Shown in pieces: positions 3,610 to 35,809 of a stretch of DNA of 39,456 nt; position 1 is the stretch's first letter, and each line of letters opens with the position of its first letter. Origin of the DNA: Verrucomicrobiales bacterium (lineage in GTDB: Bacteria; Verrucomicrobiota; Verrucomicrobiia; Verrucomicrobiales; DEV007). Position numbers and translations under genes: made by a program. The notes under the pieces are model-generated. The model saw only the letters and a program-made list of their open reading frames with translations. It made no database searches and was not told where the DNA came from. Location: the NCBI GenBank assembly GCA_022361255.1, contig JAKSBG010000262.1, positions 1-39,456 of the forward strand, given 5' to 3'.

Positions 3610-4272
3610 CTACCCGGCGACGAGATCCGTCAAGTCCCCGGGCTTCCCTAACACCGCCTCGGCTCCCGCTTCGCGCAACTCCTCGACGCTGCGGAAACCC
3701 CAGCTCACCCCGACGGCGTGCATTCCGGCATTCACGGCGGTGAACATATCGACGTCGGAATCGCCGACGAAATAGCAGCTTTCCGGGGTGATCTCGAATT
3801 GAGTAGCTGCTTCGATAGCTCCGGCGGGGTCCGGTTTTTTCGGAACGCCATCACGAGCGCCGAGAATAACATCCCATTTCCATTCGCTTAGGAATGCCTG
3901 GGCGCACTTCACTGTGAAGTCGTGTGCCTTGTTCGACAGGATGCCGATGGGGATTTCCTGTTCGTTCAAGGAGTCGAGCAATTCGGCGATTCCGGGATAC
4001 AAGACTGTCGTGTTTCTCCAATTTCTGCCGTAGGCCTCCCGGTATTCTGTCAGGATTTGATCGGTCTCTGTTCCTTCGGCGGGGCGATGCCCGTCCGGGA
4101 AAATGTCCCGGACGAGATTCATCATTCCGTTTCCGATAAAGGTCCGGTAGGCATCCGTGGGATGAGTCGGAAACCCGCGCGCGGCGAGGACCTCGTTGCC
4201 GGAATCGGCGAGGTCCTGCAGCGTGTCGAGAAGAGTTCCGTCGAGATCAAAAAGGATCGCTTTTTTACTCAT
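3610..4272 (-). CDS. gph: HAD hydrolase, phosphoglycolate phosphatase-like
   Basis: 220 residues, the normal size for Gph/PGP-type HAD enzymes. Motif I is DLDGTLLDT (nucleophile Asp and acid/base Asp), motif II is GILSNKAHD, motif III is KKPDP and motif IV is FVGDSDVDMFTA. The cap inserted after motif I is helical, as in subclass IA. 2-phosphoglycolate is the usual substrate of this branch, but pyrophosphate or other small phosphoesters cannot be excluded. The start ATGA overlaps the leuA stop by four bases, so translation is probably coupled and expression should follow the leucine attenuator. A leuA-HAD pairing has no obvious pathway logic. Confidence 0.85.
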   Translation of the reverse strand: MSKKAILFDLDGTLLDTLQDLADSGNEVLAARGFPTHPTDAYRTFIGNGMMNLVRDIFPDGHRPAEGTETDQILTEYREAYGRNWRNTTVLYPGIAELLDSLNEQEIPIGILSNKAHDFTVKCAQAFLSEWKWDVILGARDGVPKKPDPAGAIEAATQFEITPESCYFVGDSDVDMFTAVNAGMHAVGVSWGFRSVEELREAGAEAVLGKPGDLTDLVAG

Positions 4273-5975
4273 GCTTCATCCGGTTCTGTGGTGCGGAGAA
4301 GATTCCATCCGCAGATGAGAGCCTTGAGGCCCGCCATTTCAATCGAAGGATCAACGCCGCAGCCCCAGAGGAGGCGACCGGAGTTTTCCTCCTGGATCTG
4401 CACGTAGGCAGCGGAGTCTGCATCGGATCCTCCGCGAAGCGCCTGGCTGCGGTAGTCGGTCACTTTGAAATCCTTGTGCCCGGCTTCTTCGAGAAGATGC
4501 ACAAAGGCGTTGATCGGGCCGTTTCCTTTTCCGGTACCCTGGATGGTTTCTTCTCCAATCTTCACGGTAGCATGGCAGACGACTTCGCCGCGGGCCATGG
4601 CGGTGTGATCGAGTTCGAATTCCTCAAGACTCATGGGCGCGTTCTTGTTGACGAATTCCTCGAAAAAGAAATCACCAATTTCGTCATTGGAAAGTTCACG
4701 GCCCTCCTCATCGGCGCGGTCATAAACAAATTTTCCAACCTGTGGGTGCATCGATTTGGGCAAATCGAATCCGTGCTCCCGGTCGAGCACGTAGGCGACT
4801 CCGCCTTTTCCGCTCTGGCTGTTGATACGGATGATCGCTTCGTAGCTGCGTCCGAGATCCTGCGGATCGATCGTGAGATAGGGCACACCCCATTTCACTG
4901 ATTCGTCTTCCGCGAGATCTTTCGTGCGCCGGTCAAAACCTTTCTTGATCGCATCCTGATGGCTGCCGGAAAATGCGGTAAAGACTAATTCGCCGGCGTA
5001 GGGCTGTCGCTCGGGAACGGTGAGGCGGGTCGTTTCTTCGTAGATTCTCCGCGTCGACGATAAGTCGGAAAAGTCCAACCCGGTTTCAATGCCGTGGCTG
5101 TTCATGTTCAAGGCGACAACAACGATATCGAGGTTCCCAGTCCGCTCCCCGTTCCCGAAGAGAGTGCCTTCGACCCGGTCGGCTCCGGCGAGCAAACCGA
5201 GTTCGGTCGCAGCAGTTCCCGTTCCCCGGTCGTTGTGCGTGTGCAGGCTGATGATCGAATTTTCCCGGTTGTCGACGTGGCGGCAAAACCATTCGATCTG
5301 ATCCGCGTGAACGTTCGGCGTGGACCATTCAACCGTCGCAGGGAGATTGAGGATGATCTTCTTTTCCGGAGTGGGTTCCCACACGGCAGAAACGGCATTG
5401 CAGACTTCGACGGCGTAGTCGAGTTCGGTATCGGAAAAGCTCTCCGGCGAATACTGCAAGGTGATGTCCGTGTCCGGCAAAGTCGGAACGAGTTCCTTGA
5501 TCAACTTCGCGCCGTCGACTGCGATTTGTTTGATCTTCTCCTGCGAGGCATCGCTGAAGGTAACTCGTCGCTGCAAGGGCGAGGTGGAATTGTACAAATG
5601 CACAATCGCCTTTTTCACACCGGCAAGACTTTCGAAAGTGCGTCGAATGAGATGCTCACGCGCCTGCACCAATACCTGAATGGTGACGTCGTCGGGGATG
5701 CGGTTTTGATCAACCAATGCCCGGAGAAAGTTGAACTCCGTGTCAGCGGCGGAGGGGAAACCGACTTCGATCTGCTTGAAGCCGATACGGACGAGTTCGT
5801 CGAAGAGACGGAGCTTTTCCTCCACGCTCATCGGAATCGGTAGCGCCTGATTCCCGTCGCGAAGGTCAACGCTGCACCAGGTCGGGGCATGCGTGATGGT
5901 CCGGTCCGGCCACTGCCGGTCCGGGAGATCGACCGCTGGAAACGGTCGGTACTTCTGGATGGATTCAGGTTTCAT
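4269..5975 (-). CDS. leuA: 2-isopropylmalate synthase
   Basis: 568 residues from the ATG at 5975 (MKPESIQKYRPF). An in-frame upstream ATG adds 16 residues, but that extension would run through the attenuator hairpin. The enzyme condenses acetyl-CoA with 2-oxoisovalerate, the first committed step of leucine synthesis. Seen: metal-binding VDLRDGNQAL near the N-terminus, the HTHNDRGTG metal His pair, GNGERTGNLD, and a C-terminal LeuA dimer/regulatory domain (VCHATVKIGEETIQGTGKGN onward) that normally carries leucine feedback inhibition. Length and the N-terminal PTWCSVDLRDGN match the longer LeuA form seen in actinobacteria and yeast rather than the 520-residue enterobacterial form. It is preceded by a leucine-rich leader peptide and candidate terminator and overlaps the HAD gene downstream. 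Confidence 0.95.
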   Translation of the reverse strand: MKPESIQKYRPFPAVDLPDRQWPDRTITHAPTWCSVDLRDGNQALPIPMSVEEKLRLFDELVRIGFKQIEVGFPSAADTEFNFLRALVDQNRIPDDVTIQVLVQAREHLIRRTFESLAGVKKAIVHLYNSTSPLQRRVTFSDASQEKIKQIAVDGAKLIKELVPTLPDTDITLQYSPESFSDTELDYAVEVCNAVSAVWEPTPEKKIILNLPATVEWSTPNVHADQIEWFCRHVDNRENSIISLHTHNDRGTGTAATELGLLAGADRVEGTLFGNGERTGNLDIVVVALNMNSHGIETGLDFSDLSSTRRIYEETTRLTVPERQPYAGELVFTAFSGSHQDAIKKGFDRRTKDLAEDESVKWGVPYLTIDPQDLGRSYEAIIRINSQSGKGGVAYVLDREHGFDLPKSMHPQVGKFVYDRADEEGRELSNDEIGDFFFEEFVNKNAPMSLEEFELDHTAMARGEVVCHATVKIGEETIQGTGKGNGPINAFVHLLEEAGHKDFKVTDYRSQALRGGSDADSAAYVQIQEENSGRLLWGCGVDPSIEMAGLKALICGWNLLRTTEPDEA

Positions 5976-5992
5976 GGGTTTTCTAGTATGGA

Positions 5993-6028
5993 GAAAAAAG
6001 GGAAACGTCGGGACATGGTTCACCCGAC
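5993..6028 (-). terminator. Candidate leucine attenuator terminator upstream of leuA
   Basis: On the minus strand GTCGGG (6028-6023) pairs with CCCGAC (6012-6007) around a ten-base loop, followed by GTTTCCC and a run of six T (5999-5994). It lies between the leader peptide stop (6074) and the leuA start (5975). An AACGT upstream of the stem could pair with the ACGTT at its 3' edge, a possible competing structure. The T-run is interrupted, so strength is uncertain. Confidence 0.6.
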
Positions 6029-6073
6029 AAAGCGAGAGTCAAACGTTGGGAGAAAAGACGGGGGCAGGGCAGA

Positions 6074-6145
6074 TCAGCCCAGTAGCACCAGCTCGAGAGC
6101 GAGCGGGAGAACAAGTAGATTGGTGCTGTGCGTCGAGATTTTCAT
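6074..6145 (-). CDS. leuL: Leucine-rich leader peptide of leuA (attenuator)
   Basis: A 23-residue ORF reads MKISTHSTN and then LLVLPLALELVLLG before TGA. Eight of the 14 C-terminal residues are Leu, using CTA twice, CTT, CTC three times and CTG twice. This is the standard design of amino-acid leader peptides, in which ribosomes stalling at scarce leucyl-tRNA prevent termination. The coding part can itself fold, because AGCACCA near its start is the exact complement of TGGTGCT near its end. A terminator-like hairpin and leuA follow on the same strand. No clear Shine-Dalgarno precedes the ATG, and the candidate promoter is so close that the message might be nearly leaderless. leuL is used here by analogy only. 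Confidence 0.75.
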   Translation of the reverse strand: MKISTHSTNLLVLPLALELVLLG

Positions 6146-6155
6146 CTGTGGAAAC

Positions 6156-6183
6156 AAAATAGTTTCAAATGCCTGAGTGGCAA
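6156..6183 (-). promoter_or_regulatory. Candidate promoter of the leu leader
   Basis: TTGCCA (6183-6178, 5 of 6 matches to TTGACA) is separated by 16 bases from TATTTT (6161-6156, 4 of 6). The leader ATG at 6145 starts ten bases after the -10 box, giving a 5' end only a few bases before the start codon. Either the leader is translated from a nearly leaderless RNA or the true promoter is further upstream. Confidence 0.4.
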
Positions 6184-6351: not shown

Positions 6352-9300
6352 ATGGATGTACGATTTGCAGGGATCCTTCTTTCGCCAGCTTTCCTTCTTC
6401 CATCCGTATGTGCCGAAGTCGACTTCATCCGCGATGTGCAGCCGATTTTCGCCGAGAAATGCACGCTCTGTCACGGGCCGGATGACAAGAAAGGCGGACT
6501 GCGCCTCACCTCGATCGAATTTGCTTCTTCCAAACTCAAGTCTGGCTTTCGCGCTGTTGTTCCCGGAAACGCCGCGGCATCTCATCTGATCGAGCGCATT
6601 CATTCGGATGATCCCGACGAAGTCATGCCGCCGCCGGACAAAGGCGAGCCATTGACGGAGGAGGAAAAAGAAATCCTGCAACGGTGGATTACGCAGGGAG
6701 CCCATTGGCCAAAGCATTGGGCTTATCGCGAGCTGGCGAATTTCGACTCGTCTGTTCTCAGGCCGGGAGATTCGCCCGTCGATTACTTCGTTTCCCAACG
6801 CCTGGAGAAAGAAAGCATCAAACCGTCACCGCCTGCCGACGATATCACCCTGATTCGTCGGCTTTTCTACGATCTCATGGGATTGCCGCCGACGCCGGAA
6901 CAAATCTCCGATCATTTGCCGCGTTTTCGGAAAGACCGGAAAACCGCCGTCGACCGTCTCGTTTCCGACCTGCTCGCTTCCCCCCACTTCGGAGAGCGAT
7001 GGGGCCGGCACTGGCTCGACCATGCGCGCTACGCCGACTCTTACGGGTACGAGAAGGACAACAACCGGCCCAACGCGTGGCGGTATCGCGACTGGGTCAT
7101 CGACGCGATCAATCGCGACCTGCCCTTCGATCAGTTCACCATCGAGCAGTTCGCCGGCGACCTCCTCCCGGACGCCACCGAAGGCCAGTTGCTCGCCACC
7201 GCTTTCAATCGTCAGACCCTGACAAACACAGAAGGCGGAACCGATAAAGAACAATGGCGTGTCGCGGCCGTGATGGATCGGGTCGAGACCGCCGGCACCG
7301 TGTGGCTCGGATTGACCGTCGGTTGTGCCCGCTGCCACACTCACAAATACGACGAGATCACGCTCGATGAATACTACCAGCTCTTTGCCTACTTCAACAA
7401 TGGTGATGAAACGACCACGACCATGGACGGACCATCTGCCGATGTGGCCCGCTGGAAAGATGTCGTTTCCTCCCGCAAAGTGCAGTTGGAGAAAGCAAAG
7501 GCGGACCTTGCCAAAGCGGAGAGTGCTTTTGCCCCCAATCTGGCAGATCGCATCCGCTCAGCTAATCGGCGACTCGCCACGGCAACTGACAAACCAACAT
7601 TTGCTCCGCTTTCTATAAATAAAATTACCGGACCCAAAGGAGTCACTTTCCAAACCGACAAAAAAGCCAATACGGTTCTGGTTGGCGGAACCAATGTCGA
7701 TTCCGGCACCTACCGGATCGAGGGTGAAATTCCCGCAGGTGCCACCGTGACGGGTCTCAAGCTCGAGGTCCTTCCTGATCCGTCTCTTCCCGCTAATGGA
7801 CCTGGTCGCGTGAAGCACGGAAACTTTGTTCTCAATCAAATCCGGCTCACGGTCGGCGGAAAACGCCAAATTTTCGCCGACGCCGAAGCCTCGCACTGGC
7901 AGGAGAAAACCTGGAACGTCACCGGAGCGATCGACGAGAACACAAAAGGCAAAACGGAAGGCACCGGATGGGCGATCGGGCCCGAATACGGAAAAGCCAA
8001 TCACGCCATTTTCGGTCTCGCGTCCCCGGTCACGTCGGACAAAGAGAGTCCGTTCGTCATTGAACTGGTCCAGAACTACGGAACCCAACACATGATCGGT
8101 AAGTTCCGCATCTCCGCTCTGACGAGTCCCACCCGCCTCATCGTTCCTTCCGGAGTTCGTGAATTCCTGACAAAACAAGAAGCGGTAGCGGTAATCTCCG
8201 GGTCATCGGACTCGCTTCCGGAAGGCGGTGCCCAACGGGGCGGTGCCCAACAGGGTTCCGTCAACGAATCAACAGGGTCAAGCTCCTCACCCGACCCTGT
8301 TGCGTCGAGTATTCCCGCTGCGGTTAGCGACTTCTTTACCCGAACCGACCCCGGCATCGCGGCGCTTCGTGAGGGTGTTTCGAAACTGGAAGCCGGGCTT
8401 CCGAAGAAACCGACCATGGCGGTCCGCGTTCTCACAGAGCGCGTCAAGGATCCGCGAAAAACGCACGTCTTCCGTCGCGGCGAATTCAAAGAACCGATGC
8501 ACGAGGTGATTGCCGGAACTTTCGCCTCTCTGCCTGCCGTTGAGCATCGGGGAGAGACCGGCGACCGGCTTGATCTCGCCCGTTGGCTGGTCAGTGGGGA
8601 AAACCCGCTACCGCCCCGCGTTGTTGCGAACCGTATCTGGGCGCACCTTTTTGGCGAGGGCCTGGTCAGTACGGTCGAGGATTTTGGCGTGCGGGGGGGT
8701 CGCCCTTCCCACCCGGAGCTGCTCGACTGGCTTGCTTCGGAATTCATCCGCAACGGCTGGTCTCGCAAAAAGCTGATTCGCACCATCGTCACGAGCGAGG
8801 CATACCAGCGATCCTCTCATCACCGCCCCGATCTTTCTGATATTGACCCGAAGAACCGTCTTCTCGCCCGGCAGAACCGTTTTCGCGTCCAGGCCGAAAC
8901 GGTTCGCGATATTTCCCTCTCCGCCGCCGGATTGCTTTCGCAGAAAGTGGGTGGGCCGAGTGTTTTTCCGCCGATTCCCCCCGGAGTCACCGACGCGAAC
9001 TACAATTCCGCTTTCAAATGGAAAGTCAGTGAGGGCGAAGATCGATATCGCCGGGGACTCTACACCTTCTTTAAGCGGACAGCCCCGCATCCGAATTTGA
9101 TGACATTCGATTGTCCTGATTCGAATGTCACGAATGTACAGCGGAGTCGCTCGAACACTCCCATCGCGGCACTCATTACCCTGAATAACGAAACCTTCAC
9201 CGAAGCCGCTCAGGCTCTCGCCGGACGCGTTCTTCGCGAAGCTCCTGCTGACGATGCGGCCCGCCTCGAACGAGCCTTCCGCCTCTGCCTTTCCCGCGCC

Positions 9301-9495
9301 CCGGCGGATCAGGAGCGGGAACGCCTCGCGAGTTTGCTCGAGCAGGCGAGATCACACTATCGGATCCACAATGAAGATGCCGTTGACTTCGCCGGTGCGC
9401 ACCGCCCCGAAGGTATCCCACCCGAAGAAGCCGCGAGCTGGGCCGCAACGGTTCGGGTGATTTTGAATCTGGATGAGTTTATAACCCGCGGTTGA
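6352..9495 (+). CDS. Planctomycete-type cytochrome c / DUF1549 / DUF1553 protein (1)
   Basis: 1047 residues with an N-terminal signal sequence (MDVRFAGILLSPAFLLPSVCA). Domain order: PSCyt1-type cytochrome c with CTLCHG (about residues 37-42) and VMPPPDKG as a candidate distal Met; DUF1549 (PSCyt2) with LIRRLFYDLMGLPPTPEQI and HFGERWGRHWLDHARYADS; a second CARCHTHKYDEI motif near residue 325; a beta-rich lectin-like insert (about 425-600); then DUF1553 (PSD1) with ARWLVSGENPLPPRVVANR and a C-terminal VILNLDEFITRG. The family is periplasmic, its function is unproven, and it is nearly always paired with DUF1501, as here. Between insert and DUF1553, residues about 625-655 are low-complexity Gly/Gln/Ser sequence encoded by repeat array B. 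The gene is transcribed away from the leu leader. Confidence 0.9.
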   Translation: MDVRFAGILLSPAFLLPSVCAEVDFIRDVQPIFAEKCTLCHGPDDKKGGLRLTSIEFASSKLKSGFRAVVPGNAAASHLIERIHSDDPDEVMPPPDKGEPLTEEEKEILQRWITQGAHWPKHWAYRELANFDSSVLRPGDSPVDYFVSQRLEKESIKPSPPADDITLIRRLFYDLMGLPPTPEQISDHLPRFRKDRKTAVDRLVSDLLASPHFGERWGRHWLDHARYADSYGYEKDNNRPNAWRYRDWVIDAINRDLPFDQFTIEQFAGDLLPDATEGQLLATAFNRQTLTNTEGGTDKEQWRVAAVMDRVETAGTVWLGLTVGCARCHTHKYDEITLDEYYQLFAYFNNGDETTTTMDGPSADVARWKDVVSSRKVQLEKAKADLAKAESAFAPNLADRIRSANRRLATATDKPTFAPLSINKITGPKGVTFQTDKKANTVLVGGTNVDSGTYRIEGEIPAGATVTGLKLEVLPDPSLPANGPGRVKHGNFVLNQIRLTVGGKRQIFADAEASHWQEKTWNVTGAIDENTKGKTEGTGWAIGPEYGKANHAIFGLASPVTSDKESPFVIELVQNYGTQHMIGKFRISALTSPTRLIVPSGVREFLTKQEAVAVISGSSDSLPEGGAQRGGAQQGSVNESTGSSSSPDPVASSIPAAVSDFFTRTDPGIAALREGVSKLEAGLPKKPTMAVRVLTERVKDPRKTHVFRRGEFKEPMHEVIAGTFASLPAVEHRGETGDRLDLARWLVSGENPLPPRVVANRIWAHLFGEGLVSTVEDFGVRGGRPSHPELLDWLASEFIRNGWSRKKLIRTIVTSEAYQRSSHHRPDLSDIDPKNRLLARQNRFRVQAETVRDISLSAAGLLSQKVGGPSVFPPIPPGVTDANYNSAFKWKVSEGEDRYRRGLYTFFKRTAPHPNLMTFDCPDSNVTNVQRSRSNTPIAALITLNNETFTEAAQALAGRVLREAPADDAARLERAFRLCLSRAPADQERERLASLLEQARSHYRIHNEDAVDFAGAHRPEGIPPEEAASWAATVRVILNLDEFITRG
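8249..8301. repeat. 22-base-phased ACAGGGT array B, inside a coding region
   Basis: ACAGGGT lies at 8250-8256 and 8272-8278 and the inverse ACCCTGT at 8294-8300: exact 22-base steps. Upstream, GCGGTGCCCAAC(G/A)GGG is directly duplicated at a 17-base period (about 8225-8256). The whole stretch keeps the host reading frame and encodes QQG, STG and DPV at the three copies. Confidence 0.85.
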
Positions 9496-32902: not shown

Positions 32903-35809
32903 CTATTTTGTCAGCACTTCATCCAGGTTCAAAATGACCTGGGCTACAATGGTAAAGGCCGCGCCGTCGGCCGTTCCGGCCATTCCTTTATGCAGTTCCG
33001 GTTTTGACCGGTATTGGGCTTCAAGTTTGTCAAAAAGTCCGACCAGTTCATCGAGGCGGGCCTGATCCGGTTCGCGTGCGGTTGCGATGCGGTAGCCGGT
33101 AGCAACTTTTTCAGAGATCGTTCCTTCGGTTTTGTATTTCATGCGGCGGGCGAGTCCGGCGGCGGCTTCGGCGAAGGCTTCATCGTTCAGCATCGTGAGT
33201 GCCTGCAGGGGGGTGTTCGAAACAAGGCGTCTTGGATTGCAGAACTCCCGGGAAGGCGCGTCGAAGGTCGCAAAGGTAGGGTAGGGAATGCTGCGCTTGA
33301 TGTAGGTGTAGAGCGAGCGCCGGTAGCGATCCTCTTTTCCGGTCCCGGGTGTTTCCCATTTGTCTCCCGATTGAAAAGGCTTCCAGACCCCGTCTGGAAT
33401 GGGAGGATGGACGGGGGCGCCTCCCGTCTTTTCGGAAAGCAGTCCGGAAATTGCGAGAGCCTGGTCGCGCAAGGTTTCTCCGGAAAGCCGGCCTCTCGGT
33501 CCGCGGGCGAGCAGACGGTTATTCGGGTCTCGCGCGGTCAGTTCCTCCGATGCGTGGGCCTGCTGCCGGTAGGTTGAGGAAACCACGATGTCCCGGACGA
33601 TCTTTTTCATGCTCCAGCCGTGGTCGTCGCGGAAACGAACTGCGAGATAGTCGAGCAGTGCGGGGTGGCTCGGTTTTTCTCCGGAGGATCCGAAGTCTTC
33701 GAGGGTTGCGACAAGCCCGGTTCCAAACAGCTGCTCCCAGATTCGGTTTACGAAAACCCGGGAGGTGAGCGGATGTTCTTCCGAGACCCACCATTTTGCC
33801 ATGTCGAGGCGTGTCGGGCCGGGAGAGTCAATGGGGGGAAGGCTGGCGGGCACACCGGCGCTGACGGCCTTGTCTTTTTCCAGGAAATTGCCTCTCGCAA
33901 AAACGTGAGTCGGTCGGGCGATGGAGGAGGGGCGCTCCGCCATAACTGGAATGGCAGTTGCGGGGATCGCTTTTCGCGAAGCGATTTTTGTTTTCAGATC
34001 AGCCCGCTTTTTCCGCTGGTCTTCGCTTTTCGCAAATGTTGTCAGAGACGGATCACTGCTCGTTTCGAAGTAACCCTTTTGCACGACAAGCGGAAACGCT
34101 CCGAGAAGATAGCCCTTGTTGGAAATGCGGATTTTTAAACGCTGGCCTGCCACTGCGAGAGGCTCTTTCGGGATCAGGACTATGCTTCTCGCATGATGAA
34201 TTCTCGACCACGCTTCGAAGCCTTTTCCGGATGGCTCAATGACCGAAAGAGGGTCGTGGGGAAGGTGGGGAACGTCGGCAATCGAAAGGGCGAACTCGAT
34301 TGGTTTTTCCTTCCCTTCCGGACTTGAGAGGTCGACGGTTGCCGCCGAGAGATCGCTGATTTCAAATCCCCATTCTGAATCTTTGAGGGCTTTGCCGGAG
34401 TCTTTCGGGAGGACGGTGAGGCGCAGGCCGGTGAGAGGTGCTGCATCGGCCGGGAATTCTGAATGCAGGTCGTAATCGGGTCCCCGCTGCACGGTTCCGA
34501 CCGTGTAGAAGAGGGTTTGCCCGTTTCCTTCCTTTTTTTCCAGCTTTGTATGGTTGCTTGAGGCAGCGTGAGTCAGAGGAAGCGGTTTCCATTCCGCCGC
34601 CGCTGCGGCCTCATTTCCTGTCTTCCAGATCTCGTCGTGGAGTTTTTTGATTTTACGATCCAGATCACGGGCCTTTGAGTAGTCGGCGCGATTGTTCGGG
34701 ACGTGAAGCAGCGGCGCGTCGTTGTTCAGATCGGAGTCGGCCGTGTTGTTAAAAAAGGCAAGAAACTCGTAGTATTCGTGGTGTCGAAATGCTTCGTAGG
34801 GGTGGTCGTGGCATTGCACGCAGCCATATGTGATGGACCCCCAGGTCTGCCAGGTTGTGTTGACCCGGTCAATCACGGCTTCAGTGCGGAATTCTTCATC
34901 GTCAGTTCCGCCTTCGTTATTGGTCTGCGTATTGCGGTGGGCTGCTGTCGCAATGAGATCGCTGATTGTCGCGTTCGGCAACAAATCTCCCGCGATTTGC
35001 CGGATCGTGAACTGGTCGAAGGGCATGTCCTCATTAAAAGCATCCACCACCCAGTCCCGGTAGGGCCAGATCGTTCGTTTCCCATCCTGTCCCAGGCCTC
35101 GCGAGTCGGCGTAGCGAACGAGGTCGAGCCACATCGTAGCCCATTTTTCTCCGAAAGTGGGGCGGCTCAACAGGTCGTCGACTGCTTCTGCCACCGCTGC
35201 ATCGGGATCGCTCCTGTAGGCCGTCTCGAAAGCGTCCAACTCCTCCAATGTGGGGGGCAGGCCGGTAAGATCGAGTGAGAGGCGTCGGAGAAATCTCCCT
35301 CCCTTCGCCGGAGGCGAGGGCGACAGATTGTCTTTTTCGAGACGGGAGAGGACAAACGCATCAATCCCGGTTTTCGGAGCAGATGCTTCGGACAGCACGG
35401 GGATGTCCGGCCGCGTCGGTTTCTCAAAAGACCAGTGCCCGGACCATTTTGCGCCCTCATTGATCCATCGCTTTACCAGTTGGATTTCGTGTTCCGTCAG
35501 ACCTTCAGGATGCTCATCCGCAGGCGGCATTCGGTCTGAATCATCGGCCGGCAGAGTAACCCTTACGAAAAGTTCGGAAGCCTCAGCGTCGCCGGGCTTG
35601 ACGACCGGGTTGCCCGAATCGCCGGCAAAATTGATGACCTGATCCTCGTAGACGAAAGAAACTCCGCCGGCCTGTTTCACTCCGCCGTGACAGCCGGTGC
35701 ATTTTGCGTTCAATAGAGGTCGAATATCACGGGCGAAACTTACTGGATCGTTCGCGCCAGCCGTTTGGGTGGCTAGATACAAGGCGATGACTGTTAGGAT
35801 ACGCGACAT
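32903..35809 (-). CDS. Planctomycete-type cytochrome c / DUF1549 / DUF1553 protein (2)
   Basis: 968 residues with signal peptide MSRILTVIALYLATQTAGA. Cytochrome c-like domain with CTGCHG (about residues 37-42) and RMPPADEHP; DUF1549 with LRRLSLDLTGLPPTLEEL and TFGEKWATMWLDLVRYADSRGL; second motif CVQCHDHPYEAF; a middle segment shorter than in copy 1; DUF1553 with MAKWWVSEEHPLTSRVFVNR, EDFGSSGEKPSHPALLDYLA and RDPNNRLLARGPRGRLSGE, ending VILNLDEVLTK. Gene order with DUF1501 downstream is the same as copy 1, but it lacks an ACAGGGT array. Likely periplasmic and membrane-associated; role unproven. It is divergent from the DUF4832 gene across 68 bases. Confidence 0.9.
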   Translation of the reverse strand: MSRILTVIALYLATQTAGANDPVSFARDIRPLLNAKCTGCHGGVKQAGGVSFVYEDQVINFAGDSGNPVVKPGDAEASELFVRVTLPADDSDRMPPADEHPEGLTEHEIQLVKRWINEGAKWSGHWSFEKPTRPDIPVLSEASAPKTGIDAFVLSRLEKDNLSPSPPAKGGRFLRRLSLDLTGLPPTLEELDAFETAYRSDPDAAVAEAVDDLLSRPTFGEKWATMWLDLVRYADSRGLGQDGKRTIWPYRDWVVDAFNEDMPFDQFTIRQIAGDLLPNATISDLIATAAHRNTQTNNEGGTDDEEFRTEAVIDRVNTTWQTWGSITYGCVQCHDHPYEAFRHHEYYEFLAFFNNTADSDLNNDAPLLHVPNNRADYSKARDLDRKIKKLHDEIWKTGNEAAAAAEWKPLPLTHAASSNHTKLEKKEGNGQTLFYTVGTVQRGPDYDLHSEFPADAAPLTGLRLTVLPKDSGKALKDSEWGFEISDLSAATVDLSSPEGKEKPIEFALSIADVPHLPHDPLSVIEPSGKGFEAWSRIHHARSIVLIPKEPLAVAGQRLKIRISNKGYLLGAFPLVVQKGYFETSSDPSLTTFAKSEDQRKKRADLKTKIASRKAIPATAIPVMAERPSSIARPTHVFARGNFLEKDKAVSAGVPASLPPIDSPGPTRLDMAKWWVSEEHPLTSRVFVNRIWEQLFGTGLVATLEDFGSSGEKPSHPALLDYLAVRFRDDHGWSMKKIVRDIVVSSTYRQQAHASEELTARDPNNRLLARGPRGRLSGETLRDQALAISGLLSEKTGGAPVHPPIPDGVWKPFQSGDKWETPGTGKEDRYRRSLYTYIKRSIPYPTFATFDAPSREFCNPRRLVSNTPLQALTMLNDEAFAEAAAGLARRMKYKTEGTISEKVATGYRIATAREPDQARLDELVGLFDKLEAQYRSKPELHKGMAGTADGAAFTIVAQVILNLDEVLTK

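Follow-up and report, generated by a model that had tools for sequence, protein, structure and literature searches.

The window analysed here, a stretch of 39,456 nucleotides, belongs to a member of the Verrucomicrobiales as judged from its nearest named relatives, which bears out the PVC-group host proposed in the first-pass annotation. On its minus strand lies leuA (4269..5975), which encodes a 2-isopropylmalate synthase scoring 731 bits in profile comparison, against a cut-off of 697 for NCBIfam TIGR00970, and has a start codon region, ATGAA(A/T)CC, that is conserved in the alignment of same-genus relatives. The end of leuA overlaps the coordinates of an ORF for a HAD-family phosphatase (3610..4272, minus strand), akin to phosphoglycolate phosphatases and scoring under their cut-offs, and because of this overlap the two genes probably share one transcript. 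We take leuA to be the gene regulated by the region upstream of it, where a short leader ORF (6074..6145, minus strand) runs from an ATG at 6145 to a TGA stop codon at 6076-6074 and encodes the 23-residue peptide MKISTHSTNLLVLPLALELVLLG. Eight of the residues are Leu, all within the final 14. The start of leuA is found 98 bases downstream of the leader stop codon, and the intervening sequence includes a terminator-like hairpin followed by a T-run, so that the succession of elements described in the first-pass annotation was recovered with its positions, on the minus strand. The divergent neighbour of leuA (6352-9495, plus strand) encodes a protein of 1047 residues in which PSCyt1, PSCyt2 and PSD1 domains are recognised, and a second gene of this kind is present at 32903-35809.

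On its own, the window is no more than suggestive. An equal density of Leu was reached by 19 of 3000 dinucleotide shuffles of the window (0.6%), making it moderately unlikely, and the folding energy of the leader is ordinary (z -1.18). The ORF is secured by its conservation among relatives. Of the 57 genomes in the initial search for relatives, 56 yielded a leuA-like gene, with weak paralogue matches counted too, and 24 of the 29 same-genus leuA upstream regions (the core clade, window included) carry an ORF of 23-24 codons located 165-180 bases before leuA. Three other same-genus regions (L027-L029) contain other Leu-rich leaders, and no recognisable leader was found in the regions L025 and L026. 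The core ORFs align without frameshift or internal stop codon, contain a mean of 7.0 Leu in frame 0 versus 1.7 in either other frame, and reach a mean of 6.2 Leu in their best 12 residues versus 2.6 in shuffles, although neither the shuffles nor the arm swaps described below remove kinship among the compared genomes. Twenty-three of the core leaders are 23 codons long, and in all of these codon 21 specifies Leu, with all four CTN codons seen, and codon 23 is GGC. The leader of Luteolibacter marinus (L053) reads MTTNLRGLLELRPLLLGLASR. Leu richness persists through changes in both codons and RNA sequence, which points to the codons of the peptide as the sensor.

The leader ORF and leuA are predicted to lie downstream of one conserved promoter. 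A consensus scan revealed a promoter-like site in the window (6156..6183, minus strand) comprised of a -35 box TTGCCA (6183-6178), a 16-base spacer and a -10 box TATTTT (6161-6156), the last of which ends ten bases before the leader ATG, at the distance claimed previously. Either TGGACA or TTGCCA, together with TAnnTT, is found at the matching place in most same-genus relatives. Across the phylum, 52 of 91 non-redundant leaders are preceded within 60 bases by a sigma-70-like promoter, versus 8% of shuffles, and in 33 of those 52 the distance from the end of the -10 box to the start codon is 6-14 bases, the spacing being less uniform in leaders outside the core clade (15 of 32). With the promoter placed so near the start codon, the 5' leader would be only a few bases long and the peptide is probably translated leaderless or nearly so; the conserved promoter at the right distance thus favours the leaderless translation raised as a possibility in the first-pass annotation. 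The missing Shine-Dalgarno sequence, which had been set beside the promoter in that proposal, is a true feature of the leader, with an SD-like sequence preceding 1 of 91 leaders across the phylum, but is not special to it and adds little, because only 1 of the 20 window genes checked has one. None was found before the window leuA. The reading also hints that leaderless translation is routine for these bacteria, most of whose genes in the window lack Shine-Dalgarno sequences.

Covariation supports three helices of the leader RNA, all on the minus strand. Helix P1 (6084..6127) brings the two ends of the ORF together by pairing AGCACCA (6127-6121) with TGGTGCT (6090-6084), and P2 (6091..6104), formed from GCTCG (6104-6100) and CGAGC (6095-6091), sits within P1 over the Leu codons. 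Helix P3 (6065..6082) pairs CTGGGC (6082-6077) with GCCCTG (6070-6065), with one mismatch in the window, and holds the stop codon in its loop. The three helices had been named in advance, and 93.8% of their cells are paired, with six pairs changed on both sides; P2 has three pairs with changes on both sides. Their joint covariation score was reached by 0 of 500 shuffles, and the paired share drops to 25-44% when the helices are slid. The result holds when twelve sequences from outside the model building are added, with 90.6% of cells paired and eight pairs changed on both sides, in an alignment fitted to the structure. The window copy is the sole match of the resulting covariance model in its genome, and leuA leaders of other genera (L056, L049 and L050) are also matched; compensatory changes in P1 occur in other genera, such as AGTGCC/GGCACT and AGCGCC/GGCGCT. 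No match for the window leader was found in Rfam, nor any family in NCBIfam. P1 is the AGCACCA/TGGTGCT pairing of the first-pass annotation, which is therefore real and covaries. The second pairing proposed there, AACGT/ACGTT across the terminator, is present in the window and absent from the alignment of relatives, which carry AACTT...GCTGTT and similar sequences instead. Loss of the Leu codons or of the hairpin from orthologous leuA upstream regions had been named beforehand as the outcome that would speak against a leucine leader; the Leu codons and helices P1-P3 are conserved, and the search of relatives for the peptide and its hairpins, with 24 of 29 same-genus leaders found and P1-P3 covarying, supports the leader through orthologue conservation and covariation alike.

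The region between P3 and P4 (6032..6061, minus strand) is rich in pyrimidines and poor in G, with means of 40% C, 11% G and 38% T before P4 in the core clade, and its base composition makes it a possible Rho-binding region. Hairpin P4 (6022..6039, minus strand) pairs ACTC (6039-6036) with GGGT (6025-6022) and is weak in the window and stronger in relatives; in an arm-swap comparison across 24 relatives, its own arms (CCC/GGG) fit better than swapped arms. Folding of the window gave a terminator-like hairpin, P5 (5994..6028, minus strand), in which GTCGGG (6028-6023) pairs with CCCGAC (6012-6007), followed by GTTTCCC and TTTTTT (5999-5994); the sequence after the hairpin reads GTTTCCCTTTTTT. 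P4 and P5 have the GGG strand in common and are mutually exclusive. A P5-related hairpin with a T-rich tail is recognisable in most relatives, where its covariation is weak, and many core-clade members have a weak intrinsic terminator. Occlusion folding simulations of the core clade revealed no uniform switch between P4 and P5. Downstream, 18 of the 24 core regions and 18 of 92 from other Verrucomicrobiales carry a motif of the form GGG...A[CT]TG[CT]G, compared with 0.4% of shuffles; the motif fits the elemental RNA polymerase pause signal, G-10, Y-1, G+1 (PMC12288461). It is located after the hairpin and 25-115 bases before leuA in L054, L056, L072, L078, L087, L090, L154 and most core loci. 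In the window P4 is weak, P5 is better and the TTGYG motif is lost. Two further candidates in this region were set aside: an antiterminator GGTGCT/TTGYGYCC occurs at the same spot in many genomes, but pairs within a genome fit no better than those swapped between genomes, and TTGYG is unlikely to be the -35 element of an internal leuA promoter, as several relatives are without a matching -10 box.

Leu-rich ORFs, with at least 5 Leu in 12 residues, precede leuA well beyond the genus, in 66% of other Verrucomicrobiales regions versus 6% of shuffles and in 49% of those examined from the class and phylum versus 5% of shuffles, all of these regions being the best matches of each search and not a balanced sample. 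Several distant relatives appear from their sequences to be textbook attenuators with strong terminators and matching antiterminators. In L268, the leader end GGCAGTCGGGTT is the complement of AACCCCACTGCC, which belongs to the 5' arm of a strong terminator, and strong terminators are also found downstream of the Leu-rich leaders of L292, L295, L297 and L299. Occlusion folding of L265 with the ribosome stalled at Leu gave an antiterminator value of 1.00 and a terminator value of 0.00, compared with a terminator value of 0.87 with the ribosome at the stop codon, and L261 resembles L265 in that the stall favours the antiterminator and the stop-codon position the terminator. Other members kept the terminator in both ribosome states, so folding alone is no proof of switching.

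The ORF, its Leu codons, the position of the promoter and P1-P3 are conserved across the sequences compared, and it is highly probable that the leader is a leucine-responsive, ribosome-mediated attenuator of leuA, a reading for which we infer the stalling, the direction of the response and the termination. The transcript would start a few bases ahead of the Leu-rich ORF, which would be translated leaderless or nearly so. With ample charged tRNA-Leu, the ribosome would get to the stop codon and transcription would end before leuA; with leucine short, it would stall on the Leu codons and keep P1 and P2 open, and the strands so freed could refold and allow RNA polymerase to continue into leuA. 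For the final step in the window's clade, the intrinsic hairpin P5 has about an even chance of being the agent, and Rho acting at the C-rich stretch is a lesser candidate.

The same leader peptide could be coupled to termination by Rho, which we regard as possible and somewhat doubtful; as this is a sub-case of the attenuator, the two confidences overlap. The ribosome leaving at the stop codon would expose the C-rich, G-poor stretch to Rho and polymerase would wait at TGYG, the conserved pause-like site, and a stalled ribosome would alter the folding or hide the Rho site. The composition before P4, the weak intrinsic terminators of many core members, the pause-like motif in 18 of the 24, with its fit to the signal of PMC12288461, and the presence of Rho-like genes in the genome are all consistent with such a route; there are two of these genes (G000:C168:10677-11951 and G000:C381:1561-2697), both under the curated cut-off of TIGR00767. 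Pyrimidine-rich stretches are however common in leaders and Rho binding here is putative, TTGYG is lost from the window, whose own hairpin and T-run are fair, and distant relatives have clear intrinsic terminators. A more sweeping proposal, that leucine attenuation of leuA through a leaderless peptide is an old trait of the whole Verrucomicrobiota and that the window's order moved from a U-tract terminator to a hairpin with the pause-like GGG...A[CT]TG[CT]G, alone or with Rho, is put forward tentatively and is rather unlikely.

It is improbable that the leader acts on the translation of leuA or on RNA stability, or binds a protein, with the Leu codons not serving as sensor. A role of this kind has been proposed for the Actinobacterial LEU element, the Leu codons of the Streptomyces coelicolor leuA leader did not act like a classical attenuator (PMC1262725) and mutations in that leader had effects inconsistent with classical attenuation (cited in PMC1262725), and the conserved unpaired A[CT]TG[CT]G near leuA would suit such a role. 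Against this stand the Leu richness that outlasts changes in codons and RNA sequence, a leuA with no Shine-Dalgarno sequence to hide, and the strong terminators of relatives. That a short Leu-rich ORF and an unrelated hairpin arose by chance in a C/T-rich leader fits the Leu density reached by some shuffles and the ordinary folding energy of the window, but is contradicted by the comparative data, in which many genomes keep the frame and length of the ORF, its Leu content, its spacing from the promoter and the covarying helices, and is extremely unlikely.

Of known systems, enterobacterial leuL (RF00512) shares with the window a short ORF rich in Leu codons, followed by a terminator-like hairpin with a T-run and then leuA, and alternative pairings. 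The Escherichia coli layout was checked in NC_000913.3, and its leader matches the Rfam Leu_leader at 145.8 bits as a positive control, whereas RF00512 matched neither the window, at the gathering score or at an E value of 10, nor the relatives tested, and the verrucomicrobial covariance model did not match E. coli. The enterobacterial layout drawn on by the first-pass annotation therefore holds for the order of the elements and not for likeness of sequence or structure. The window also differs in its start codon about ten bases from the -10 box, in P1, which pairs the ORF's own ends, in the stop codon in a hairpin loop and in a weaker terminator. Leu-rich leader ORFs before leuA are likewise found in Actinobacteria, where a LEU element with a leucine-run leader precedes leuA in most members and folds into a conserved pseudoknot in which Leu codons and the Shine-Dalgarno sequence of leuA make up the base stem (PMC1262725), and where LeuL1 of Streptomyces lividans (MRFGLLLLSCRGEGL) lies before leuA on a leaderless transcript without a typical Rho-independent terminator (PMC8079986). 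In the window, from a different phylum, the helices found join other parts, and a base stem of the LEU type is impossible in that form because leuA lacks a Shine-Dalgarno sequence. The general logic proposed here is supported by the ilvB1NC attenuator of Mycobacterium tuberculosis, which is ribosome-mediated, uses branched-chain amino acid codons and has been experimentally tested, and which differs in its operon, its phylum, its 166-base leader and its defined Rho-independent terminator (PMC13236596).

Leaderless leucine leaders without clear terminators before leuA are thus already known from Actinobacteria, and it is the spread across the phylum that is of interest here; no earlier report for Verrucomicrobiota was found in a literature search that reached a minority of subscription papers, and one may exist elsewhere. 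Leaderless polycysteine short ORFs of mycobacteria are reportedly attenuators that sense cysteine, going by the title of the work of Canestrari et al. in 2020, cited in PMC13236596, and as far as that title tells they resemble the window leader in being short, leaderless and dominated by a single amino acid and differ in the amino acid, operon and phylum. If correct, the present reading would extend a classic gene-control mechanism to Verrucomicrobiota, and would provide, among related leaders, a natural gradation from textbook terminators to forms nearly devoid of one, in which to study how attenuators change.

Other biosynthetic genes and atypical leuA regions were also inspected. A candidate trp leader of the same genomes, upstream of trpE and with ...WNQTEWAF at its end, was rejected, since its frame continues upstream and it resembles the tail of a longer gene. 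No consistent leader was found upstream of ilvB in these genomes or upstream of hisG, the latter being weak evidence because the scan often took the neighbouring gene. In L055, L081 and L089, two of them from Rubritalea, no Leu leader was found before leuA, and the space is filled by a conserved ORF of 45-46 residues (MTDGPLAGL...), apparently the end of another gene. One sub-group (L278, L279, L280, L284, L285 and L286) has very short, Leu-poor leaders, such as MRHIAQALRLT, and several of its members have a hairpin beginning GACGCACGATC after the stop codon, a different architecture. In leaders outside the core clade (for example L054, L062, L171, L270, L279 and L280), CGA is the codon for 42 of the 45 Arg residues that stand between two Leu, compared with a CGA share of about 9% of the Arg codons in leuA genes; this preference could reflect a slow codon ahead of the Leu control codon or a constraint on the RNA.
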